In this document: positions 8,241 through 53,839 of the stretch, piece after piece
Layout of the letters: each line of letters opens with the position of its first letter
How positions within the stretch are numbered: the stretch's first letter is position 1
Assembly: GCA_029261135.1 (NCBI GenBank)
Contig: JAJDBX010000050.1
Location: forward strand, 1-54,249
Length of the DNA stretch: 54,249 bases
From: Nitrospirota bacterium
Lineage (GTDB): Bacteria > Nitrospirota > Nitrospiria > SBBL01 > JAADHI01
Direction: 5' to 3'
Notes under the pieces: generated by a model
Told to the model about the DNA's origin: nothing
The model's database searches: none
Seen by the model: only the letters and a program-made list of their open reading frames with translations
Made by a program: the position numbers and the translations under genes

Positions 8241-9366
8241 TGAGTACCACCAAATTGTCGCGATGAATCACTTCATCGGCGCCTTTGTAACCCAAGATTG
8301 CTTCGATCTCGGAGGAATGATTCCCTTTGATTTTCATCATCTCAAAAGCATTATAGTTCGTCAAGCCTCGGGCAATTTCCTTCCCCTCCGGAGAAAGGCA
8401 GCGGATGGCGTCTCCAACGCCAAATTTTCCTTCGATCGAATGGATGCCGGAAGGCAGAAGTGATCGCCCTTTTTGCATTACGGCTTTGACGGCCCCTTGA
8501 TCCAGTACAATAGAGCCTTTCATTTTGAGTGAATAAGCAATCCATTGTTTTTTTGAAGAGAGGCGTACGGCTTGCGGTAAAAAGAGGGTGCCTACCGCTA
8601 AGCCCTCGAAGGCTTGTTTGATTAAATCGGGTCTCATCCCGTTAATAACTAAAGTCGTCACGCCATAGGCCGCGACATCTGCGGCCATCTTCACTTTGGT
8701 CTGCATCCCTCCGGTTCCGCCTGCTTTGCTTGATCCGCCTGCCATCGCTACGATTTCATCGGTAACTGTTTCTACTATCGAGATTAACTTTGCTTCGGGA
8801 TGTGCTCTCGGATCTGCTGTGTAAAGGCCGTCGACATCGGAAAATGCAACGAGTAGGGAGGCATCCACCAAATGGGCCACCTGCGCCGCAAGGTTGTCGT
8901 TGTCGCCGAGCTTGATTTCATCCACAGTGACCGTATCATTTTCATTGATAACGGGCAGTACCTGATGCTCCAGTAGGGTGATTAAGGTATTTCGTGCATT
9001 GATAAATCGTTTGCGATCGGTCAATCCATCGTGTGTCAGTAAAATCTGAGCGACTTTGATTTCATGGGTTTCGAATAAGCGTTCATAAGCCCACATGAGC
9101 CGACTTTGTCCCACTGCTGCCGCCGCTTGTTTCATGGGAATGGTTTTGGGTGGGCTGGAAAGCCCCAGTTTTTCTGTGCCGCAAAGCACGGAGCCCGATG
9201 AAACAAGTAGGATCTCATGCCCCGCTTTACGAAGCGACGAGACCTCCTCTGCAATAGCAGAGAGTCTTTTTTCGTTCAGCCCTTGATCGCGTGAGGCGAT
9301 GACATTGCTCCCGATTTTGATCACGATGCGTTTATGTTTATGAAGCTTAGGCCGTTTGGATGACAT
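8227..9366 (-). CDS. proB: Glutamate 5-kinase
   Basis: ProB phosphorylates glutamate with ATP, the feedback-regulated first step of proline synthesis. The 379-residue protein has an N-terminal amino-acid-kinase domain (IVIKIGSNV near the start, NENDTVTVDEIKLGDND in the middle) and a C-terminal PUA domain from about residue 285, as in long-form ProB. I place the start at the ATG ending at 9366 because AAAGGTGAG lies just upstream. A GTG nine bases further upstream is itself part of that ribosome-binding site. The gap to obgE is 28 nt. Confidence 0.97.
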   Translation of the reverse strand: MSSKRPKLHKHKRIVIKIGSNVIASRDQGLNEKRLSAIAEEVSSLRKAGHEILLVSSGSVLCGTEKLGLSSPPKTIPMKQAAAAVGQSRLMWAYERLFETHEIKVAQILLTHDGLTDRKRFINARNTLITLLEHQVLPVINENDTVTVDEIKLGDNDNLAAQVAHLVDASLLVAFSDVDGLYTADPRAHPEAKLISIVETVTDEIVAMAGGSSKAGGTGGMQTKVKMAADVAAYGVTTLVINGMRPDLIKQAFEGLAVGTLFLPQAVRLSSKKQWIAYSLKMKGSIVLDQGAVKAVMQKGRSLLPSGIHSIEGKFGVGDAIRCLSPEGKEIARGLTNYNAFEMMKIKGNHSSEIEAILGYKGADEVIHRDNLVVLNGTV

Positions 9367-9394
9367 GAAGCTCACCTTTAAAAAGGGGCAGTTA

Positions 9395-10447
9395 TCACTG
9401 GACGATCAATGGTTCTAAGGCTTGATTTGCATTGTGGCGATGCTTTTCAACTTCAATCCCTAAGGCGCGAATGAGGGGTTTAACGCCCAAGCCGGTTGCT
9501 GAAGAGATTTCAAAAAAAGGAAAAGCTTTTTCATCGCAATAAGTACGCAGGGTTTCCACTTTTTCTCCACCCATTGCAATGTCCATCTTGGTGGCTGCGA
9601 CAAAAAAAGGTTTTTCATGCATTTTGGGATGATATTGAAGCATCTCTTCTCGAATGATTTCAAAATCGTGCACAGGATTATTCATTGTCATTTCAGAAAC
9701 ATCCACAAGGTGCAAAAGAACAGAGGTGCGTTCAATGTGTTTTAAAAATTGGATGCCGAGCCCTTTTCCTTCGTGTGCGCCTTCAATCAAACCCGGCACA
9801 TCAGCGATGGTGATATGACTGAGTTGGCCTTTTGATGATTGCCAGCTTGCGACCCCGAGGTTGGGTTCGAGTGTTGTGAAGGGATAGTCCCCAATCTTCG
9901 GATGTGCGTGGGTCATGGCAACCAATAAAGAAGATTTTCCCGCATTGGGAAAACCGACCAAGCCTACATCGGCCAGGAGTTTTAATTCCAGTGTGAGCCA
10001 GAATTCCTCACCGGGAACACCCTGCTCTGCTTCAAGGGGTGTTTGATTGGTTGCGCTCTTAAAACGTGAGTTGCCACGCCCCCCTTTGCCGCCTTTTGCA
10101 ATAATCAAACGTTCGCCGGACGTCACCAAATCACCGATCAGTTCACTGGTCTCAAAATCTCGGACCACGGTTCCGACCGGTACAGGGATCACCCGATCTG
10201 GGCTTTCTTTTCCTGATGAATTGTGTCCACTGCCGTGTGCGCCCCGTTTGAGCTTGTAATGTTGTTGGTAGCGTAAATCAATCAGGGTTGAAAGTTGACG
10301 AGAGGCTTCTAGTACAACGTCGCCGCCTTTTCCCCCATCACCGCCATCCGGCCCGCCCTGAGAGACAAATTTCTCACGACGAAAACTGACGCAGCCATCG
10401 CCGCCGTTTCCAGCCTTCACATAGATTTTTACTTGGTCAACAAACAT
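9395..10447 (-). CDS. obgE: GTPase Obg (ObgE/CgtA)
   Basis: Obg is an essential GTPase that binds the 50S subunit late in assembly and links it to the stringent response. The 350-residue protein shows the Gly-rich Obg fold (1-158, with GGDGGKGGD-type repeats), then a G domain: G1 GFPNAGKSS 165-173, G3 DVPG 216-219, G4 TKMD 286-289, G5 SSATG 315-319. The variable C-terminal OCT domain found in some bacteria is absent. It follows rplU-rpmA in the usual order. A terminator-like hairpin sits directly before the ATG, so its expression may be set below that of the ribosomal proteins. Confidence 0.98.
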   Translation of the reverse strand: MFVDQVKIYVKAGNGGDGCVSFRREKFVSQGGPDGGDGGKGGDVVLEASRQLSTLIDLRYQQHYKLKRGAHGSGHNSSGKESPDRVIPVPVGTVVRDFETSELIGDLVTSGERLIIAKGGKGGRGNSRFKSATNQTPLEAEQGVPGEEFWLTLELKLLADVGLVGFPNAGKSSLLVAMTHAHPKIGDYPFTTLEPNLGVASWQSSKGQLSHITIADVPGLIEGAHEGKGLGIQFLKHIERTSVLLHLVDVSEMTMNNPVHDFEIIREEMLQYHPKMHEKPFFVAATKMDIAMGGEKVETLRTYCDEKAFPFFEISSATGLGVKPLIRALGIEVEKHRHNANQALEPLIVQ

Positions 10448-10506: not shown

Positions 10507-10538
10507 CAGAACTTAAATGAAAAGTGAAATAAAACGGT

Positions 10539-11196: not shown

Positions 11197-11727
11197 TAAA
11201 ATTGAATGCGATTTATTGATTGATCCACCGTAGAGCGTTTAGCGAATCCTTGTGCAGGGCAGTGTTAGTCATGGGGTTTTACCCCACGGCAACAATCCTT
11301 TTTCCAGGGTACGCGACTACGAGTATATTTTCGATTATTACTATCTCCTTTCCACGACGAATAATCGAGTCGATATTTTTGGATGATCTTGATTATGCTG
11401 TGCTTAGTAGTTGCATTGATGGTCATTCGGTTTGTTTTTGGATTGTTATATGAAAAACCCATCTACAAACATTTTTTTTCGGCCTTCATTAAATATTGCC
11501 TTTTTTACTGATTTTCATTAAATTAACATAACGGATCCATCGTCTTTTACATCTGCATATTTCTTTTGCAGACAAGCCAATCTCTCCCAAATGGATCATT
11601 CTGAATGATTTATTCAGGAACTAAAGCAGATTATTTTTCAACAGATTTCTTGTCTATTAACTAAAGCTCGAATTGAGCGGGAGCTTCGTTGGCATTTTTC
11701 TTTCAAATGGCTCTTTGAGTCTTGACA
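11197..11727. other. AT-rich intergenic region upstream of the cas operon
   Basis: About 530 nt with no gene I can support. Two overlapping opposite-strand frames of 65-77 codons (near 11220-11462) have no ribosome-binding site and hydrophobic, unfamiliar sequence. Visible structures are a short hairpin TGGGGTTTTACCCCA near 11272-11286 and a nested inverted repeat AAGCTC/GAGCTT with GCTCGAATTGAGC inside near 11663-11687. The latter lies about 45 nt before cas3 and could be a regulator site. I could not pick a clear cas promoter. Confidence 0.4.
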
Positions 11728-13965
11728 ATGACTGAGGCGGAAAATAATCGGGTAACGATTGCGCATGTTCGGAAAGATGAGCATGGAAAATTCATTGTTC
11801 ATGATCTTGAGGAGCACTTGTCAGGGGTTGCAGGGCTTGCCTCTGACTTTGCCTTGCGATTCGGAAGCTCCGACTGGGCCCATTTGGTAGGCTTATGGCA
11901 TGACCTAGGAAAGTACAGTCAAGCATTTCAGCATCGCATCAAAACACTCTCTGGTTTTGATGCGGAAGCCCATCTGGAAGGCAAGGCAGGCAAGGTGGAT
12001 CATTCTACAGCAGGCGCACAATACGCGATGACACAACTCGGGCTGACAGGACGGATTCTAGCCTACCTCATCGCAGGACATCACGCGGGGCTTCCCGATT
12101 GGCACACAGGAGAAGCCCGAGGCAAAGCACTGAAAGTGAGACTTGATGAACAAAGCCACTTAGCCTCTGCTCTGAGTCAACATATCCCTCAAAGCATTCT
12201 TTCCCAGCCCAATCCCACAAGCCCGCTTTTGGGTGGATCGGCAGGTTTTGCCTTGTGGGTGCGCATGTTGTTTTCTTCATTGGTCGATGCAGATTTTCTC
12301 GACACCGAATCTTTCATGGATGCCGACAAAGCAAAAAATCGCCAGAATAGCTCCTCAATGCAAGTACTCTTGCAGCAATTCAATGCACAAATGGATCTGA
12401 ACTTCTCTGACAACACCACCAAAAAGATCAATCGTATTCGTTGGAATGTTTTACAACAATGCAGAAAAAAAGCCGATTCGCCAGCAGGCATTTTCTCCCT
12501 GACGGTTCCAACCGGAGGCGGGAAAACGCTTTCGAGCCTGGCCTTTGCTTTAGAACACGCCGTCGTTCACAAAAAGGGGCGCGTGATTTACGTCATTCCC
12601 TATACCAGCATCATCGAACAAACGGCCAATACCTTTCGTGAAATCTTTCCCGATGCGGTTGTGGAACATCACAGCAACCTTGATCCCGACAAAGAAACAA
12701 CGGTGAAAAATCGCTTGGCGGCGGAAAATTGGGATGCACCCATTATCGTCACCACGAACGTTCAGTTTTTTGAATCCTTGTTTGCGGCCAAAACCAGCCG
12801 TTGCCGTAAGCTGCACAACATCGTCAATAGCGTCGTCATTTTAGATGAAGCACAATTGCTGCCCCCCGAGTTTTTAAAGCCCATTCTAAGCATCATGAAT
12901 TTGCTCACACAACACTACAATGTGACCTTCGTACTGTGCACAGCCACACAGCCCGCTTTGAATCAACGCAGTGGTTTCGATTGGGATTTTCCGGGTTTGG
13001 AAAATGTTCACGAAATCATTGATGATCCTGATGCCCTTTATCGAGACCTCGAACGCGTGGAGGTGGTTTTACCGAAAGATTTTCAGCAAAGTAAAACCTG
13101 GGATGAAATTGCTGAAGAGATAGAAGCACATGCCTGCGTTTTAGCCATTGTCAATACGCGCGCTGAGGCCCGTGAACTGCATCGTCGGCTGCCCGAAGAC
13201 ACGATCCATTTATCTGCACTCATGTGTGGCGAGCATCGCTCCTGTGTGATTTCTGACATTAAAGATCGGCTCAAAAGAGGGGAAACCCTGCGCGTCGTGA
13301 GCACACAATTGGTTGAAGCGGGTGTGGATATTGATTTCCCCGTGGTCTTTCGTGCTTTAGCGGGGCTGGACTCTATCGCCCAGGCCGCTGGCCGCTGCAA
13401 TCGAGAAGGCCGCCCTGACTTAGGAAAGGTTGTGGTCTTTATCCCACCGAAACCGCCGCCCCCCGGCCATCTACGGCGCGCCGCACAAACAACCGTCTCC
13501 TTGCTTTGTGGTCAGAAAGGAACCCCCTTGCGGCGGGGACTTTTCAAAAATTACTTTGAGCAACTGTATTGGAAGGCCCCTTCTCTAGACAAACACGGAA
13601 TAGAAGACTTGTTGAAACCCGAAGGCCAAGGGGATGATGCTTTAAAAGTGCAATTCCGCAGCGCGGCACAACGTTTTCAGTTGATTGACGAATCGGGCTA
13701 TCAGAGTTTGATTGTATGTTATGGCAAAAGTATTGATTTCATCGAACAACTTAAACAAGCAGGGCCGGAACGCTGGTTGATGCGGAAACTCCAGCGCTAC
13801 ACCATAAACCTGCCGAAATATCAATTTCAACACTTGCTGAATCAGGGTGATGTGATCGAGGTTTATGCGGGAATATTTGCGCAATGCTCAGAAGCGCTTT
13901 ATCATCCCACTTTGGGGGTATTGATGGACGACTCAATCCCAGATCCAACCGCTTTTGTTGTGTGA
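11728..13965 (+). CDS. cas3: Cas3 nuclease-helicase (type I-C)
   Basis: Cas3 is recruited by Cascade after target recognition, then unwinds and degrades the invader strand. The 745-residue protein has an N-terminal HD nuclease (H30, H58-D59 in HDLGK, H92, H118-H119) and a DExH-type helicase: Walker A PTGGGKT 261-267, DEAQ 373-376, TATQP 405-409, and motif VI in AAGRCNREGR. All visible catalytic residues are present. I use the ATG at 11728; an in-frame TTG lies 6 nt earlier and neither start has a strong Shine-Dalgarno. It heads the operon and is followed by cas5 after 9 nt. Confidence 0.97.
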   Translation: MTEAENNRVTIAHVRKDEHGKFIVHDLEEHLSGVAGLASDFALRFGSSDWAHLVGLWHDLGKYSQAFQHRIKTLSGFDAEAHLEGKAGKVDHSTAGAQYAMTQLGLTGRILAYLIAGHHAGLPDWHTGEARGKALKVRLDEQSHLASALSQHIPQSILSQPNPTSPLLGGSAGFALWVRMLFSSLVDADFLDTESFMDADKAKNRQNSSSMQVLLQQFNAQMDLNFSDNTTKKINRIRWNVLQQCRKKADSPAGIFSLTVPTGGGKTLSSLAFALEHAVVHKKGRVIYVIPYTSIIEQTANTFREIFPDAVVEHHSNLDPDKETTVKNRLAAENWDAPIIVTTNVQFFESLFAAKTSRCRKLHNIVNSVVILDEAQLLPPEFLKPILSIMNLLTQHYNVTFVLCTATQPALNQRSGFDWDFPGLENVHEIIDDPDALYRDLERVEVVLPKDFQQSKTWDEIAEEIEAHACVLAIVNTRAEARELHRRLPEDTIHLSALMCGEHRSCVISDIKDRLKRGETLRVVSTQLVEAGVDIDFPVVFRALAGLDSIAQAAGRCNREGRPDLGKVVVFIPPKPPPPGHLRRAAQTTVSLLCGQKGTPLRRGLFKNYFEQLYWKAPSLDKHGIEDLLKPEGQGDDALKVQFRSAAQRFQLIDESGYQSLIVCYGKSIDFIEQLKQAGPERWLMRKLQRYTINLPKYQFQHLLNQGDVIEVYAGIFAQCSEALYHPTLGVLMDDSIPDPTAFVV

Positions 13966-13974
13966 GGAGAACGC

Positions 13975-14706
13975 ATGAAAACCTATTGTCTTGAAGTCAG
14001 CGGTGACTTTGCCTGCTTCACACGGCCGGAGATGAAAGTCGAACGTGTGAGTTATGACCTGATGACGCCTTCGGCGGCCCGCGCCATCTTTGAAGCCATT
14101 TTGTGGAAACCTGCCCTTCGCTGGCAGGTGAGCAAAATTGAAGTGCTCAACCCAATCAAGTGGATCAATTTTCGGCGCAATGAAGTGGGCTGTGTGGCCT
14201 CAACACGGAATGTCAAAATCGCCATGAATACGGGGCTTGGGCGGCTTGGCATTATTGTTGAGGATGAGCGCCAGCAACGTGCAGGGCTTTTTTTGCGTGA
14301 GGTCAAGTACCGCATCCATGCTTCATTTGAATTGCGCGATCCGAGTTTTCACAAAACCAACTTTCCTCACCTCAGCAAACGACAAGTCAATTCGGGAGAA
14401 GATCATTTTGGCCGAGAAGAAGATCGTGCCGTAAAATTTATGACGATGTTCGAACGCCGCGCAAAAAAAGGACAATGCATCAACCAGCCCTATCTTGGCT
14501 GCCGGGAATTTGCGGCAAATTTTACATTGCTCGAGGATAAAACAGATCAAACAAAACCGATCTCCGAGAGCCGCGATTTAGGCTACATGCTCTACGATTT
14601 AGATTACAGTACTCCCACCGATCCCAAGCCGCGGTTTTTTCGGGCACAACTCACCAAGGGCATTTTGAAAATCCCCGTATGGGACAGCGAAGAGGTGCGC
14701 GGATGA
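13975..14706 (+). CDS. cas5: Cas5c/Cas5d crRNA-processing endoribonuclease
   Basis: In type I-C systems, which lack Cas6, Cas5 (Cas5d/Csd5 family) cuts pre-crRNA within the repeat and caps the 5' handle in the complex. The 243-residue protein has the family N-terminus (YCLEVSGDFACFTRPEMKVER) and the segment SYDLMTPSAARAIFEAILWKP. A ribosome-binding site GAGGAG precedes the ATG. Its TGA overlaps the cas8c ATG (ATGA), showing tight coupling. The type I-C call is secured by cas8c next door. Confidence 0.95.
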   Translation: MKTYCLEVSGDFACFTRPEMKVERVSYDLMTPSAARAIFEAILWKPALRWQVSKIEVLNPIKWINFRRNEVGCVASTRNVKIAMNTGLGRLGIIVEDERQQRAGLFLREVKYRIHASFELRDPSFHKTNFPHLSKRQVNSGEDHFGREEDRAVKFMTMFERRAKKGQCINQPYLGCREFAANFTLLEDKTDQTKPISESRDLGYMLYDLDYSTPTDPKPRFFRAQLTKGILKIPVWDSEEVRG

Positions 14707-16439
14707 TCTTGCAAAGCCTTTACGATTATTACCAACGCAAATGCGCTGACCCCGAAGCACACATGGCAAGTCCGGGCTTCGAACGAAAAGAAATCCCTTT
14801 TATCTTCGAAATCGATGTCGAAGGGGCACTGATTCAAATTGAGGATACACGCGAGGGAGAAGCAAAGAAAAAACGAGCCCGCTCCTATCTTCTGCCACAA
14901 GGGTTCAAAAAAACGTCTGGGGTCGTTTCAAATTTATTCTGGGATAATGCAACCTACGTCCTGGGTCTGGAGACAAAAGGAAAACCAGGTCGCGCTGTGG
15001 AACAACACAAGGCCTTTATCGCCAATATCGAGGCACTGCCCGAAGCCCTTCGAATAGATCAAGGCGTCTCCGCCGTAATAAAATTTTTACAAGATCTGAA
15101 TCTTGAACGCTGTTCACAAGATTCGAATTGGCCGGAAATTTCTGAGACAAATCCAAACCTGACATTTAGACTTCAGGGTGCAACGGAATTGGTCTGCCAA
15201 AGACCTGCGATTGTTGCACATATTGATCAGAGTCAAAGTTCAAAAGAACCAAGCTCAGACCTTTGTTTGATCACCGGGGATCATGACGAATCCGCGCGAC
15301 TACACACCGCCATCAAAGGCGTTTGGGGGGCGCAAACAGCGGGGGCCAACATCGTTTCATTCAATCTCAATGCCTTCAACTCCTACGGAAAGACACAGGG
15401 GGCAAATGCCCCCGTCGGAAAACGTGCCACATTCGCCTACACGACCGCCCTCAACCACCTGCTTCGAAAAAATTCACCGCAACGCCTGCAAGTCGGAGAC
15501 ACAAGCACGGTATTCTGGGCCGATAGGCCCAGCGATTGGGAAACAGGCATGACCAATGTTTTCGGCGAACCCACAAAAGACGATCCCGACAGCAATGTTC
15601 GGGCAGTTGAAAGTCTTTATCGTGCGATCGACAAAGGACTACTCGAAAACGAAGAAGGTCTGACGCAGTTTTTTGTATTAGGACTTGCACCCAATGCCGC
15701 ACGCATCGCCATCCGTTTTTGGCATCACAGCACCGTGGCAGAAATGACCACCCGCATCAAGCAGCATTTTGAGGATCTTTCCATTATACGTTCTGAACGA
15801 GACCCACCCTACCTGTCGTTGTTTCGCCTACTGGTCTCCACAGCAACGCAAAACAAAGCAGATAATATTGCACCCAACATCAGTGGGGATTTGATCCGCA
15901 GTATTCTCACAGGAACGCCCTACCCCCAAACATTACTTGCAGCCGCTGTGCGGCGCATCCGTGCCGAGCACGAAGTCACCTACGCGCGCGCAGCACTCAT
16001 TAAGGCCTGCATCAATCGCAATACTCGTTACCAACAAACACATCTAAAGGAGGAACTCAAAATGTCTCTGGATGAAAACAATCGGAATATCGGTTACCGG
16101 CTTGGCCGTTTGTTCTCCGTCTTGGAAAAAATTCAAGAAGAAGCGAACCCCGGTCTCAACGCAACTATTCGAGATCGTTTTTACGGCGCAGCCGCAAGCA
16201 CACCAGTGACGGTATTTTCAACGCTGATCAAACTCAAAAATCACCACATTTCCAAACTAGAGCATCGAGGCCGCGCGGTCAATTTGGAAAAATGTATTGG
16301 CGAAGTGATGGACGATATCAGCGATTTCCCCGCAAATTTGTCCTTGCCGGATCAAGGCCGTTTTGCCATCGGGTACTACCATCAACGGCAAAATTTCTTT
16401 AAAAAGGCAAGTATTCCAACCGAAGGAGTTAAATCATGA
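14703..16439 (+). CDS. cas8c: Cas8c (Csd1), large subunit of type I-C Cascade
   Basis: Cas8c recognises the PAM and stabilises the R-loop. The 578-residue protein begins [13 protein letters not shown], a typical Csd1 start, at the ATG that overlaps the cas5 stop. An upstream in-frame GTG lies inside cas5 and is not used here. Middle-region Csd1 segments such as [18 protein letters not shown] are intact. An internal ribosome-binding site for the small subunit Cas11c, known in other I-C systems, is plausible: AAAGGAGGAACTCAAA at about 16047 precedes an ATG at 16062, giving a separate C-terminal product of about 125 residues. cas7 overlaps by 4 nt. Confidence 0.96.
16062..16439 (+). CDS. cas11c: Probable internal Cas11c small subunit within cas8c
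   Basis: Some type I-C cas8c genes carry an internal in-frame start that yields a small helical subunit, Cas11c, lining the Cascade belly. Here a very strong Shine-Dalgarno (AAAGGAGG) lies 9 nt before the in-frame ATG at 16062, deep inside cas8c. The product would be 125 residues, close to the expected size and mostly helical, starting [15 protein letters not shown]. The site and position match the known cases. Expression itself is inferred. Confidence 0.7.
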
Positions 16440-17350
16440 GCATTGAAAATCGTTACGACTTTGTATTGTTATTTGATGTGAAAGACGGCAACCCCAACGG
16501 AGACCCGGACGCCGGCAATCTGCCACGCGTCGATGCGGAAACCGGGCGGGGCTTGGTGACGGATGTCTGCTTAAAACGAAAAATACGTAACTACGTGGCC
16601 ATGACAAAAGATCAGAATGAAATAACAGCGCCACTTGAGGGCGAACAGAAACGCTTTGAAATATATGTGAGAGAAAAAGCCATTCTCAACAAACAACACG
16701 AACGGGCTTATGCCGCTATCGGTGCAAGTGATTTACTCATAGCGGAGGGCAAAAAACGAAAGGGCGGCGAGCGGGTCGATGATGCGCGCGCATGGATGTG
16801 CAAAAATTTTTACGACGTGCGAACCTTCGGCGCCGTCATGTCGACCCGTGTGAATTGCGGTCAAGTGCGCGGCCCGGTGCAACTGACCTTCTCGCGCTCT
16901 GTTGACCCCATCGTGGCACAAGAACACTCCATCACACGAATGGCCGTGGCGACGGAGGCAGAGGCCGAAAAACAAGGTGGGGATAATCGCACGATGGGCC
17001 GAAAACACACCGTGCCCTACGGACTGTACGTAGCACATGGATTTGTTTCATCTCACCTTGCTGCGCAAACCGGTTTTTCCGACGACGATCTTGAATTGCT
17101 ATGGGAATCGCTTTCCAATATGTTTGAACATGATCGCTCTGCCGCACGCGGCGAAATGGCAACGCGGGGTTTGTATGTTTTTAAGCATGATTCGAAATTA
17201 GGTAATGCACCGGCCCACCGTTTGTTTGAGCGCATTCAGATCAAACTCAATGAAGAGATTACAGCTCCAAGAGGTTTCGGAGACTACAGCATAACGGTAA
17301 ACCGAGATGAGTTACCCTCAGAAATCACCCTAAGTCCGAAAGTAGAGTAA
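16436..17350 (+). CDS. cas7: Cas7c (Csd2), crRNA-binding backbone subunit
   Basis: Several Cas7 copies coat the crRNA spacer in Cascade. The 304-residue protein has the Csd2 N-terminus with [18 protein letters not shown], the segment [12 protein letters not shown] around residue 125, and [10 protein letters not shown] shortly after. The ATG overlaps the cas8c stop (ATGA) and is preceded by GAAGGAG. The effector block cas3-cas5-cas8c-cas7 ends here. Next come two unrelated small genes before the adaptation genes resume. Confidence 0.96.
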
Positions 17351-17367
17351 TTAGAGAAAGTAAAAAA

Positions 17368-17607
17368 ATGAGTCCAACAATTTTCAGAGCCGCAGGTTAT
17401 CGATTTTTCTTCTTTTCACGCGAAGAAACCCGTATGCATGTGCATGTCGTTTCCGGGGATGGCGAGGCAAAATTTTGGCTTGAACCTGAGATTGAATTGG
17501 CAAAAAATATCCGATTATCAAGACAGCAGTTAAAGGCAATCGAAATACTCATAGAGGAGCACAACAATGAACTTACCCGCGCATGGCAACAGCACTTCAG
17601 TTCTTGA
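17368..17607 (+). CDS. DUF4160 small protein (putative toxin-antitoxin-like partner)
   Basis: The 79-residue protein matches the DUF4160 pattern: an N-terminal sheet with RFFFFSREETRMHVHV, where the usual HxPHxH-type motif is reduced to MHVHV, then a short acidic strand and the helix RQQLKAIEILIEEHNNELTRAW. DUF4160 genes are very often followed by a DUF2442 gene, and the pair is suspected to be a toxin-antitoxin or regulatory module; its biochemistry is unknown to me. It overlaps the next gene by 41 nt and starts 18 nt after cas7 in the same direction, so it is probably in the cas transcript. It is not a known Cas protein. Confidence 0.8.
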   Translation: MSPTIFRAAGYRFFFFSREETRMHVHVVSGDGEAKFWLEPEIELAKNIRLSRQQLKAIEILIEEHNNELTRAWQQHFSS

Positions 17608-17842
17608 GGTCACCCATATTTCGAGTCATGGCGTGTGGCTCTTATCTCAGGATAAAGAGCTATTTATGCCTTATGACCTATTCCCCTGGTTTAAAGATCA
17701 GCCGGTCAAGTCCATCATTAAGGTTGAAGAACCCTCACCGGGACATTTTTATTGGCCGGATATTGATGTAGATCTGTCGATAGCGTCCATTGAGCATCCC
17801 GAGCGTTTTCCTTTGGCATCAAAAAATTCCAAGAAGAATTAA
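17567..17842 (+). CDS. DUF2442 small protein
   Basis: The 91-residue protein matches DUF2442: EVTHISSHGVWLLSQDKELFMPYDLFPWFKDQPVKSIIKVEEPSPGHFYWPDIDVDLS-type sequence with the conserved YDLFPWF and WPxxDxDLS segments. It has its own Shine-Dalgarno (GAGGAG) inside the 3' end of the DUF4160 gene and overlaps it by 41 nt, which indicates obligate co-expression. Cas4 starts 24 nt downstream. Its function is unknown. It is the usual partner of DUF4160 and may be the antitoxin or DNA-binding half of the pair. Confidence 0.82.
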   Translation: MNLPAHGNSTSVLEVTHISSHGVWLLSQDKELFMPYDLFPWFKDQPVKSIIKVEEPSPGHFYWPDIDVDLSIASIEHPERFPLASKNSKKN

Positions 17843-17866
17843 TCTAAAACGGAACCCGTCATTCAA

Positions 17867-18484
17867 ATGGAACGCGAACCCATCATGATATCAGCCCTGG
17901 AGCACTACAGCTATTGCCCTCGGCAATGCGCCCTCATTCATCTTGAGCAGAGCTTTGATGAAAATATTTACACCCTGCGCGGCCAGGCTTTGCATCGTAG
18001 GGTGGACGAAGTGAAAACCGAATATCAAGAGGGCATCCGCATCGAACGCGCACTGCCGCTTTGGAGTCAGCGGTTGGCATTGATTGGGAAAGCCGATGTC
18101 GTGGAGTTTCACGGCGACATCCCCTATCCGGTTGAATACAAACACGGCCCCCGGCGAAAAAGAGAGCATGACGACCTACAACTCTGTGCGCAAGCGATTT
18201 GTTTGGAAGAAATGACCGGAGAACTTGTGCCAAAAGGGGCTATTTTCCATCACAGTTCACGGAGACGGCGTGAAGTCTTATTTGATCAAGGCCTACGCGA
18301 TCTTGTCGCAGAAACCACAGAAGCGATCCGAGAACTATTTGTATCAAAAAAAACGCCTTCGCCCGTCAATGACCAGCGCTGTACCCGTTGTTCTCTTCTG
18401 GAATCGTGCATGCCTTCGACCTCAGGAAAAGAAGACGCGACCCGACTCGCGCAAAAAAAGCTTTTCCAAATTACAGAATTCTAA
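17867..18484 (+). CDS. cas4: Cas4 exonuclease of spacer acquisition
   Basis: Cas4 trims prespacers and sets their PAM-defined orientation together with Cas1-Cas2. The 205-residue protein has the RecB-like nuclease core (GKADVVE, then PVEYKHG) and iron-sulfur cysteines at both ends: C17 and C21 in YCPRQC, and C172, C175 and C181 near the C-terminus. The start used is the ATG at 17867; a second ATG 6 codons later is also possible. In the usual type I-C order it sits directly between cas7 and cas1. Here foreign genes lie on both sides. Confidence 0.95.
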   Translation: MEREPIMISALEHYSYCPRQCALIHLEQSFDENIYTLRGQALHRRVDEVKTEYQEGIRIERALPLWSQRLALIGKADVVEFHGDIPYPVEYKHGPRRKREHDDLQLCAQAICLEEMTGELVPKGAIFHHSSRRRREVLFDQGLRDLVAETTEAIRELFVSKKTPSPVNDQRCTRCSLLESCMPSTSGKEDATRLAQKKLFQITEF

Positions 18485-18510
18485 GGGATAAATGCCCTGA
18501 TTTGAGAGGG

Positions 18511-18578
18511 AGAAGGATTGAAATACGGTCTAGTTTTTTATTAAAACAACATTGCATCTGTCCTTCGGCTAGATGCAA
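18511..18578 (+). repeat. Repeat-like fragments and UUCG hairpin between cas4 and hicB
   Basis: The 9-mer GGATTGAAA at 18515-18523 equals the 3' part of the CRISPR repeat of this locus, and GTCCTTCGG at 18560-18568 equals its loop region. The second lies in the loop of a perfect 8-bp inverted repeat, TTGCATCT 18552-18559 with AGATGCAA 18571-18578. The hairpin has no U-tract and ends 20 nt before the hicB ATG, so it could also be a HicB operator or an RNA-processing stem. Confidence 0.4.
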
Positions 18579-18598
18579 ATAAAAACAAGGAGCTGAAA

Positions 18599-18790
18599 AT
18601 GGAAAGACTTAAATATGTTTTTTGGCAAGATGAAGAAATGTGGCTGGGTTATCTGGAGACATATCCTGATTATATGACACAAGGTGAAACAAAAAATGAG
18701 CTCACAGCAAATCTGAAAGATATTTATACTGAACTGAATAGCGGAAACATTCCTTGTGTCAGAAAAGTCGCAGAGCTTGAAGTCGCATGA
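18599..18790 (+). CDS. hicB: HicB-family antitoxin
   Basis: HicB antitoxins have a partial RNase H-like fold that blocks the HicA mRNA interferase and usually represses the hic promoter. The 63-residue protein is the short HicB type, with YVFWQDEEMWLGYLETYPDYMTQGET followed by the helix EELxxNLxDIY-type segment and IPCVRKVAELEV. No separate C-terminal DNA-binding domain is present. It has a strong ribosome-binding site (AAGGAG, 8 nt before the ATG). The TGA overlaps the hicA ATG (ATGA at 18787-18790). It lies in the cas direction between cas4 and cas1. The usual toxin-first order is reversed, as is common for this subtype. Confidence 0.88.
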   Translation: MERLKYVFWQDEEMWLGYLETYPDYMTQGETKNELTANLKDIYTELNSGNIPCVRKVAELEVA

Positions 18791-18966
18791 AGCGGAAAGG
18801 TTTAGTCCGGAAAATTGAAAAAATGGGATGCATTTTTTTGAGACATGGAGGAAATCATGATTGGTATTAGAATCCTGAAACTAAAATCGCTCAGCCCCTT
18901 CCCCGCCACAACGAGATTAACGATTATTTGGCAAAACATATTCTCAAAATGCTCTCAAAAAAGTAA
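18787..18966 (+). pseudogene. hicA: hicA toxin gene with one in-frame amber stop
   Basis: Translation from the ATG at 18787 gives a HicA mRNA-interferase N-terminus, MKRKGLVRKIEKMGCIFL then RHGGNHDWY with the catalytic His in GGNH. TAG follows at 18868-18870, and the same frame continues with NPETKIAQPLPRHNEINDY and ends at TAA 18964. The whole 59-codon frame aligns with a normal HicA except for the stop. A single C-to-T change (CAG to TAG) would explain it. TAG ends other genes in this window (leuA, the FadL-type gene), so it is not recoded. The truncated product of 27 residues should be inactive unless the stop is suppressed. Confidence 0.88.
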
Positions 18967-18994
18967 TAACAGCATGTAAAGAAGGGGTTCCAGC

Positions 18995-20026
18995 TTGCAT
19001 CAACTCCTAAACACGCTCTACATCACCACCGAAGGGGCCTATCTTCATCTCGACCACGACACGCTCAAAGTCAAGATCGAAAAAGAAACCAAACTTCAAG
19101 TTCCCGTGCACCACCTGGGTGGCATCGTCTGCTTTGGCAATGTCATGGTCAGCCCGGCGGCGATGGCGCGTTGCGCGGAAGACGGACGTTTTCTCGTATT
19201 GCTGGATCGCAATGGGCGATTCAAAGCCCGTGTCGAAGGGCCGGTTTCCGGGAACGTGCTCTTGCGAAGCGCCCAGCATGAGATCATGCGCGATAAAGAA
19301 AAATCACTCGAAATCGCCAGAAATATGGTGGCGGGCAAGATTCAAAACAGTCGCCAGATCGTGCTTCGCGGCGCACGAGAAAATACGGATGACGGTGACA
19401 GTCAAACATTGAAAAAGACCACAGATAAACTCGCAAATACCTTGTCACGTCTTCCAAAATGTCAAAACATTGATCAAGTCCGTGGCATTGAAGGCGAATC
19501 CGCAAGGGCTTATTTTTCCTCTTTTGATCGCATGGTGCGTGAAGACCGGGAAACCTTCCGTTTCAATGGCCGAAACCGACGACCGCCACGTGATCCGGTG
19601 AATGCACTGATCTCTTTTCTATATGCCTTATTGATGAATGATTGTGTCGCGGGTGCAGAGGGAGTAGGACTTGACCCTCAATTGGGGTTCTTGCACACCA
19701 TCCGTCCCGGTCGGGCCGCGCTGGCTTTAGACTTAATGGAAGAATTGCGTGCTGTGTTAGCGGATCGATTGGCTCTTACACTGATCAACCGTAAACAGAT
19801 CCGAGCAAAACATTTTATTGATCGACCCGGCGGAGCCGTTCATTTAGATGATGACGGAAGAAAGGAAGTAGTGGTTGCTTATCAAAAGAGAAAACAAGAA
19901 GAAATCACGCATCCTTTGCTGAATCAAAAAATGCCAATTGGTTTAATTCCGCATGTGCAGGCACGTCTGCTCGCCCGAACCTTGAGAGGGGACATGGAAA
20001 CTTATATCCCTTATCTTTATCGATGA
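18995..20026 (+). CDS. cas1: Cas1 integrase (type I-C)
   Basis: Cas1 is the metal-dependent integrase that inserts new spacers at the leader end. The 343-residue protein has the three conserved metal ligands: E166 in GIEGESARAYF, H234 in FLHTIRPGR and D246 in ALDLMEE. The start is a TTG at 18995 with GAAGGGG about 8 nt upstream. No ATG is available before the conserved beta domain. cas2 follows after 7 nt. It lies 28 nt after the dead hicA, so read-through from the cas/hic transcript is needed unless a separate promoter exists. Confidence 0.96.
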   Translation: MHQLLNTLYITTEGAYLHLDHDTLKVKIEKETKLQVPVHHLGGIVCFGNVMVSPAAMARCAEDGRFLVLLDRNGRFKARVEGPVSGNVLLRSAQHEIMRDKEKSLEIARNMVAGKIQNSRQIVLRGARENTDDGDSQTLKKTTDKLANTLSRLPKCQNIDQVRGIEGESARAYFSSFDRMVREDRETFRFNGRNRRPPRDPVNALISFLYALLMNDCVAGAEGVGLDPQLGFLHTIRPGRAALALDLMEELRAVLADRLALTLINRKQIRAKHFIDRPGGAVHLDDDGRKEVVVAYQKRKQEEITHPLLNQKMPIGLIPHVQARLLARTLRGDMETYIPYLYR

Positions 20027-20033
20027 GAAACCG

Positions 20034-20324
20034 ATGTTTGTTGTGATTGCCTATGACGTCTCAACAGAAACCCGTGAAGGTAAACGCCGCTTGAGGCGCA
20101 TTGCAAGCGAATGCAAAAATTTCGGGCAGCGGGTTCAACAATCCGTTTTTGAATGTACTGTCAATCCGATGGAATATGAGACATTGGTTCGGCGGCTTTT
20201 GGAGATTATCAATAAAAAAGAAGATCGGCTTCGGATCTACCGCCTCACGGCGCCGAAGGAAAAACATATCGAAATCTACGGATTAGACGGGACAGTCGAT
20301 TTTGAAGGACCCTTGCTGGTTTAA
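20034..20324 (+). CDS. cas2: Cas2 (spacer-acquisition scaffold)
   Basis: Cas2 dimers bridge two Cas1 dimers in the integration complex. The 96-residue protein has a ferredoxin-like fold beginning FVVIAYDVS with Asp8 at the conserved metal position, RVQQSVFEC in the second strand and [17 protein letters not shown] at the C-terminus, typical of type I-C Cas2. The stop codon directly abuts the leader inverted repeat. Confidence 0.96.
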
Positions 20325-20501: not shown

Positions 20502-21413
20502 GTAGCACCCGTCCTTCGGGGCGGGTGAGGATTGAAACCCCGATTGCGTCAAATACCGCGACAGTGTTGACCGTGTAGCACCCGTCCTTCGGGGCGGGTG
20601 AGGATTGAAACGATGGCTGACTTATTTGGTTCATGGGTTCCGGGGGTAGTAGCACCCGTCCTTCGGGGCGGGTGAGGATTGAAACGGTTGATATTGCAGA
20701 GGCTCGGACAGAAACATTTTACGTAGCACCCGTCCTTCGGGGCGGGTGAGGATTGAAACACGGGCCAAGCAAGGCCCGCGTGTACGTCGAATATGTAGCA
20801 CCCGTCCTTCGGGGCGGGTGAGGATTGAAACAACACGGTGGCTGGCCCATGTATGTTTAAAAATGGAGAGGTAGCACCCGTCCTTCGGGGCGGGTGAGGA
20901 TTGAAACTGGTTCAATGCCATTTACTCCCCGTGGGTGTCATTGGTAGCACCCGTCCTTCGGGGCGGGTGAGGATTGAAACCAGATTGGACAGAAAAGAAA
21001 ATAGAAAGAATACAAGTAGCACCCGTCCTTCGGGGCGGGTGAGGATTGAAACCCGTAACAGTCGCACCCAACCAAACATTATCCGGGGTAGCACCCGTCC
21101 TTCGGGGCGGGTGAGGATTGAAACGCCGTTTACCTCTGACCCCTGCCATTGATTGATTGTAGCATCGGTCCTTCGGGGCGGGTGAGGATTGAAACCAGTT
21201 GCCTGAGTTGCTGTAACCTGAGTTGCTGTTGTAGCATCCGTCCTTCGGGGCGGGTGAGGATTGAAACATCTTAATCCCAGGGTAGGTATCTGCAAATTTC
21301 CCCGTAGCACCCGTCCTTCGGGGCGGGTGAGGATTGAAACTTGAATTTCTCGGAGATTTAAAACAAGCCTACCTGGGTAGCACCCGTCCTTCGGGGCGGG
21401 TGAGGATTGAAAC
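20502..21413 (+). CRISPR. Type I-C CRISPR array, 13 repeats and 12 spacers
   Basis: Thirteen 37-nt repeats start GTAGCACCCG and end GAGGATTGAAAC, so crRNAs carry the usual ATTGAAAC-type handle. Starts: 20502, 20575, 20649, 20723, 20795, 20871, 20944, 21016, 21088, 21159, 21231, 21304, 21377. Spacers are 36, 37, 37, 35, 39, 36, 35, 35, 34, 35, 36 and 36 nt and all differ. Each repeat folds into a 9-bp stem (one U-G pair) capped by a C(UUCG)G tetraloop. Repeats 10 and 11 share a C-to-T change at repeat position 8 (GCATC), and repeat 10 has a further C-to-G change; the two distal repeats are consensus. No spacer source was recognised in the window. Confidence 0.99.
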
Positions 21414-53768: not shown

Positions 53769-53839
53769 CTAAATAGTGTGTATTGACACATAGCGGGTCT
53801 AGTTAAAAAAGTAACAACATTGAAAAAGGTTCAAACCTT

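Follow-up and report, generated by a model that had tools for sequence, protein, structure and literature searches.

The toxin–antitoxin (TA) genes within this type I-C CRISPR-Cas operon probably constitute an island at a recombination joint between the effector module (cas3-cas5-cas8c-cas7) and the adaptation module (cas4-cas1-cas2), accompanied by a separate degenerate repeat–spacer–repeat element, designated here as the psi-unit, with a putative regulatory role. The window, namely, the whole 54,249-nt stretch of Nitrospirota DNA that was analyzed, carries one TA pair on each side of cas4, and in other type I-C loci these flanks of cas4, where the effector and adaptation modules meet, are hot spots for insertion or exchange, with toxin-like inserts in several phyla.

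Operon layout and the two TA pairs

The gene order in the window is cas3, cas5, cas8c, cas7, DUF4160, DUF2442, cas4, hicB, a hicA pseudogene, cas1, cas2, and the CRISPR array. The effector module spans 11722 to 17350 on the + strand (Pfam Cas3, Cas5d, Csd1, and Cas7; cas7 itself at 16436-17350, +), followed by cas4 (17867-18484, +; PF01930, 8e-25), cas1-cas2 (18995-20324, +; Pfam Cas1 and Cas2), and an array of 13 repeats of 37 nt (20502-21413, +), the sequence of which is GTAGCACCCGTCCTTCGGGGCGGGTGAGGATTGAAAC and the spacers of which are 34-39 nt long. The complete cas3-cas5-cas8c-cas7-cas4-cas1-cas2 set together with 37-nt GATTGAAAC repeats identifies the locus as type I-C. A previous sequence-only reading placed TA-like pairs on either side of cas4, and Pfam analyses confirmed its coordinates and gene calls, with DUF4160/DUF2442 at the cas7|cas4 junction and hicB plus a broken hicA at the cas4|cas1 junction. 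It also assumed a shared transcript from the common direction and short gaps or overlaps of these genes; every gene is on the + strand, with successive gaps of 17, -41, 24, 114, -3, and 15 nt from cas7 to cas1, and we infer from this arrangement that both pairs are co-transcribed with the cas genes. Promoter and terminator matches in the cas7-cas1 stretch were not in excess over chance.

Both pairs belong to TA families, as had been proposed, and HicBA is a classical member of these. DUF4160/DUF2442 corresponds to DhiTA, a type II TA demonstrated in Dickeya dadantii and E. coli (PMC8198452), and in Thermus the pair stabilizes plasmids and raises their persistence, a plasmid with the DUF4160 gene, but without the DUF2442 gene, yielding zero transformants (PMC12724237). 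In the window, an intact DUF4160 ORF for a DhiT-type toxin (17368-17607, +; PF13711, 6e-20, whole domain) overlaps by 41 nt (17567-17607) the intact gene for a DUF2442 protein of the DhiA antitoxin type (17567-17842, +; PF10387, 9e-13), which is present as a single copy in the 3.2-Mb genome. Its identical domain pair, toxin-first order, and overlapping intact genes liken it to DhiTA of Dickeya and PEM of the Thermus plasmids; however, it lies at the cas7|cas4 junction, where no separate promoter was seen for it, and its toxin is a predicted one. This DhiTA probably remains a functional TA.

Regarding the second pair, the ORF at 18599-18790 (+) is intact and showed only a weak match to Pfam (UPF0150, E 0.039), and it was assigned as HicB because it is similar to HicB of an intact HicBA pair elsewhere in the genus (L184 in genome G003; HicA there, E 2.8e-14). 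Identity is 79% to that HicB, 86% to HicB of G004, and 79% to that of G005. The description of hicA as broken was right: the pseudogene (18788-18979, +) is otherwise in frame and encodes a recognizable HicA (HicA_toxin 4.4e-10 with X at the stop) interrupted by a single nonsense codon, TAG at codon 28 (18869-18871). In the MAG assemblies, the window and G004 both have a nonsense codon at this position, TAG in the former and TAA in the latter. The adjacency of HicB and HicA in this order, their overlap by a few nt, and the recognizable HicA domain are those of type II HicBA systems, whereas the stop leaves the antitoxin alone intact; HicBA in the window is no longer a working TA.

Turnover at the flanks of cas4

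A comparison with relatives, which are MAG assemblies (the nearest named ones being the Nitrospirota MAGs OFTM244 and OFTM249), revealed several states of the same joint. The order in G004, which belongs to the same genus, is GajA, GajB, a scrap of the cas7 3'-end, DUF4160 (interrupted by an internal stop), DUF2442 (intact), part of a second hicB, HicB (intact), hicA (likewise interrupted by a stop), and cas1 (90% identity), which reaches the contig end. Gabija GajA/GajB (3e-280 and 1.5e-242) occupies the place of the I-C effector genes (L182:4466-8655), with the cas7 3' scrap remaining. Neither cas4 nor effector genes are present in the stretch beside cas1, in which the contig ends, and Csd1 was not found in the G004 genome. 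Both TA pairs are still found next to cas1, each with an intact antitoxin and a broken toxin.

G005 (L026/L183), from another genus of the same family, has a divergent I-C effector module followed in order by cas4, what remains of an antitoxin, a fragment of the cas7 3' end, HicB, a HicB-HicA pair, another cas4 copy, the 3' end of which is identical to that of the first, Unstab_antitox with ParE, and cas1 at 88%. The same antitoxin gene start follows each of the two cas4 copies (L026:7043-7740 and 8768-9480), which may reflect segmental duplication or gene conversion. G006 (L020) has another I-C effector (Cas8c 28% and Cas7 45% identical), cas4, the psi-unit, an insertion, and cas1 at 88%. No TA pair is present in this locus, the Cas1 of which is 88% identical to that of the window, and a new accessory role of these genes in spacer acquisition, as had also been suggested, is unsupported in view of their absence from this sister locus. 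The insertion of approximately 250 bp in L020 (15820-16100) is bounded by the inverted 16-bp sequence GTTGTGTGGAAAAGGG and starts with a sequence resembling tRNA-Leu (GTGTGGCGGAATAGGTAGACGC). The 515-nt gap in this locus was rejected as a tRNA gene, ARAGORN detecting no tRNA and Rfam nothing besides CRISPR-DR9; its terminal inverted repeats of 16 bp suggest an insertion.

These comparisons of G004, G005, and G006 therefore indicate that adaptation genes stay, that effectors, cas4, and TA pairs turn over, and that toxins break first. The fixation of adaptation modules while effectors are shuffled in situ is a published pattern (PMC6452270), to which the window and L020 conform, sharing adaptation genes and an identical array repeat with different effector genes (Cas8c 28% identity); they differ from it in that TA pairs mark the joint, outlasting the effector region now occupied by Gabija. 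Addiction modules selected to protect CRISPR-Cas offer another explanation, in which a cell that loses the operon also loses the labile antitoxins and is arrested by unopposed DhiT or HicA. The increase in plasmid persistence in Thermus (PMC12724237), the intact DhiTA of the window, and the recurrence of TA genes at these joints are consistent with it, but hicA is interrupted by a stop in both the window and G004, the close locus L020 with 88% Cas1 lacks both pairs, and G004 has lost the DUF4160 frame. Since the pairs in G004 did not prevent the loss of the neighboring effector genes and cas4, we regard addiction as improbable, and the proposed guarding of the locus, as put forward in the sequence-only reading, is not supported.

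The tendency was then sought in other loci. The survey sample comprised 80 loci selected by Cas1 similarity, with the 53 that retained the I-C gene order being counted and an extra ORF being defined as at least 55 aa. Extra ORFs were present at cas7|cas4 in 9/53 and at cas4|cas1 in 5/53 (4 without the spurious ORFs of L027, which is L020), compared with 2/48 at cas3|cas5, 1/53 at cas5|cas8, and 0/53 at both cas8|cas7 and cas1|cas2. Gaps longer than 250 nt were similarly distributed (9/53 at cas7|cas4 and 6/53 at cas4|cas1; 3, 1, 0, and 0 at the other joints in the above order), the median gap being between -3 and 11 nt at all joints; two of the long cas3|cas5 gaps are psi-repeat loci (L044 and L084). 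The difference between the cas4 joints (13/106) and the others (3/207) was significant when related loci were counted singly without correction for phylogeny (Fisher 9e-5). The isolation of cas4, which had been singled out as notable, thus reflects a real tendency of I-C loci, with gaps and extra ORFs biased toward both cas4 joints.

According to Pfam searches on representatives, the inserts in the 53 loci were mostly Virulence_RhuM, Bro-N, Uma2, and 23S_rRNA_IVP (the last below the cut-off), with HicA also being identified at the cas4 joints, while HEPN with a nucleotidyltransferase, DUF433 with DUF5615, and Unstab_antitox with ParE were found outside the strict set. The RhuM, Bro-N, and Uma2 inserts are toxin-like rather than proven toxins. 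They cluster by lineage, with Geobacteraceae harboring most RhuM/Bro-N inserts and cyanobacteria Uma2, and independent insertion events are fewer than loci, perhaps about five. Toxin-like genes thus recur at cas4 joints elsewhere, but the particular pairs of the window are confined to its genus or family. In the literature searched, we found no previous report of an insertion hot spot at the cas4 flanks, the nearest parallel being a type II-C locus of Bacteroides fragilis in which RhuM genes separate cas1 from cas9 (PMC5704556). Geobacteraceae-like I-C loci (L059, L060, L062, L064, L067, and L091) carry genes for RhuM and Bro-N (PADLOC candidates PDC-S05 and PDC-S13, respectively) at the cas4 joints. 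By analogy with CreP, which is reported as a KilA-N protein, these genes are candidates for CRISPR-repressed toxins.

Random insertions without positional meaning are also conceivable, and HicBA and DUF4160 genes are scattered outside cas loci in the relatives; however, the strong bias toward the two cas4 joints and the different TA pairs found there in G000, G004, and G005 make this unlikely. A cost of antitoxin loss for as long as the toxin works is a general feature of TA systems. In the TA island that we favor, DhiTA and HicBA would have landed at the joint in the ancestor of the genus, both pairs would be read through from the cas transcript, and this cost may have allowed them to persist for a time. 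Their decay would proceed toxin-first and leave antitoxin genes as scars, the state observed for hicA in the window and both toxins in G004. Cas4 would end up isolated between TA pairs because the joint is a site at which effector modules or cas4 are exchanged or lost, as in G004, G005, and G006.

A degenerate repeat–spacer–repeat unit between cas4 and hicB

The 114-nt gap between cas4 and hicB contains an element that was overlooked in the previous reading, in which a hairpin, AGGATTGAAAT, 26 nt, a hairpin with the loop GTCCTTCGG, and ATAAAAAC together form a degenerate repeat–spacer–repeat. The first repeat, psiR1 (18495-18524, +), consists of a CCCT/AGGG hairpin followed by the 5'-handle-like AGGATTGAAAT (AGGATTGAAAC in the array), and the psi-spacer ACGGTCTAGTTTTTTATTAAAACAAC occupies 18525-18550 (+). 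The second repeat, psiR2 (18551-18586, +), has an 11-bp hairpin with the array loop ahead of ATAAAAAC (fold z -4.15), and sequence comparisons showed that two C-G pairs of the array repeat stem are replaced by U-A pairs with pairing kept. The combination GGATTGAAA-N(20-45)-GTCCTTCGG occurs in the 3.2-Mb genome only in the array and this gap (0 in the reversed control), and none of 20000 Markov shuffles of the gap yielded it.

In the L020 ortholog, psiR1 (15690-15727) is better kept (Rfam CRISPR-DR9, 18 bits, sub-threshold; model R1, 19.2 bits), the handle is as in the window, ACTGTCTAGTTATTTCTT is present, and a second hairpin, which folds alone no better than shuffles, lies 27 nt past the handle with the same spacing as in the window. 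The psi core is identical at 26/29 positions between the window and L020, which is from another genus, compared with 41% identity at four-fold sites of cas1 (P 7.5e-8), and without the handle it is identical at 15/18, namely, within the first 18 nt of the psi-spacer (P 3e-4 against the same sites). A class-wide search of 270 genomes detected no psi core beyond the window genome and L020, the only ortholog. The window unit scored poorly against an I-C repeat covariance model (6.7 bits, E 4.1), which was rejected as sole evidence; because this score is unconvincing, the case for the psi-unit rests on its uniqueness and conservation.

CreA units have a degenerate psiR1 with the handle kept (PMC9458426), and the window unit resembles CreA and CreR (of CreTA, CreR, and CrePA) in its psiR1-spacer-psiR2 order, in psiR1 being the most degenerate part, in the retention of the handle and hairpins, and in its location inside a cas operon, although by the covariance model the two degenerate repeats flanking the spacer are weak. 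It differs in its psi-spacer, which is 26 nt versus 34-39 nt in the window array and for which no PAM-flanked target was found, and, with respect to CreTA and CrePA, in having neither creT nor a KilA-N toxin beside it: only 10 nt separate the cas4 stop from the psiR1 hairpin, leaving no creT toxic RNA gene upstream, and no KilA-N/Bro-N gene was detected among the operon proteins scanned with Pfam. Type I-C is not mentioned in the CreTA papers searched.

Possible roles of the psi-unit and significance

The psi-unit, the guide function of which is putative, may provide the CRISPR-guided link that the sequence-only reading approached through an analogy with CreTA. No PAM-flanked target or promoter seed match beside a PAM was obtained for the window psi-spacer by window scans with and without PAM or by two-genome scans with TTC plus seed and seed alone, and the same kind of scan provided none for the L020 unit. 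The best non-self hits, one antisense inside L020 cas3 with GTT instead of TTC and the other at 10534 in the window with AAA, were dismissed as chance. Also rejected was a two-block 9+9 match to the 16S rRNA leader (approximately 53796-53821), which is not conserved in relatives and was equaled by 8/600 AT-rich control 34-mers. The psi-unit could serve as a CreA-like guide with which Cascade silences neighboring toxin genes as in CreTA and CrePA. It adjoins hicBA, its psiR1 is more degenerate than psiR2 with the handle kept as in CreA (PMC9458426), and its core is more conserved than neutral sites; nevertheless, no target with PAM and seed was found near hicBA, DhiTA, or elsewhere, hicA is dead, and the unit is present in L020 without hicBA or DhiTA. 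We consider such toxin repression to be very doubtful.

The psi-unit may instead be unrelated to the TA genes and act as a regulator of the CreR type or as a site at which Cas5 processes the cas transcript, a reading compatible with the TA island. Degenerate repeats at cas joints of other I-C loci, for which L044 and L048 also have matching targets in promoters, argue for it, whereas no target of the window unit was found in the cas promoter region by a scan that clearly recovered the TTT/TTC-flanked promoter targets of the CreR-like units in L044 and L048. We regard it as a realistic possibility, albeit one falling short of probable.

The CreR-like units in L044 (5617-5740, Nitrospira RHO3_bin_20) and L048 (5820-5910, Entotheonella) are located upstream of cas5 and comprise a TTGACA promoter, a TTT/TTC-flanked target (CATTGATTTATAGC, or CATTGATTTGTAGC in L048), a degenerate repeat, and then a spacer, each spacer matching its own target except at position 12 or at positions 6 and 12. 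In L045 (3456-3548, a Binatota MAG), two degenerate repeats (30.7 and 17.9 bits; fold z -4.67) with a 25-nt spacer are present at cas7|cas4. Units occur at this joint in L053 and L056 also, at cas3|cas5 in L080, L084, and L087, and at cas1|cas2 in L056. Single degenerate repeats are found directly before cas3, cas5, cas4, or cas2, or after cas2, in I-C operons of Moorella and related Firmicutes (sites at L053:9262; L056:3510 and 5331; L080:3570 and 5921; L084:5630-5857; L087:5867 and 11369), and in Firmicutes these are possible Cas5 processing sites within cas mRNA. Since other I-C loci carry degenerate-repeat units at several cas joints, such units are not unique to the window locus.

Besides the TA island, the psi-unit would probably yield a small RNA that Cas5 processes and that, once loaded into Cascade, acts as a regulator. 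In a bolder version, which we hold to be rather unlikely, this RNA would let the I-C Cascade control expression at the joint (cas1-cas2 and/or the TA pairs), making interference, adaptation, and toxins one circuit, and such units would be general in type I-C.

The psi-unit represents a new candidate crRNA-like regulator in type I-C. Taken together with the survey, the present results provide a testable rule, namely, that toxin-like genes gather on either side of cas4 in type I-C, where effector modules swap. One family displays several stages of this process, including Gabija replacing the CRISPR effector with TA scars left behind, which bears on the question of whether TA genes guard defense loci or merely ride on them.
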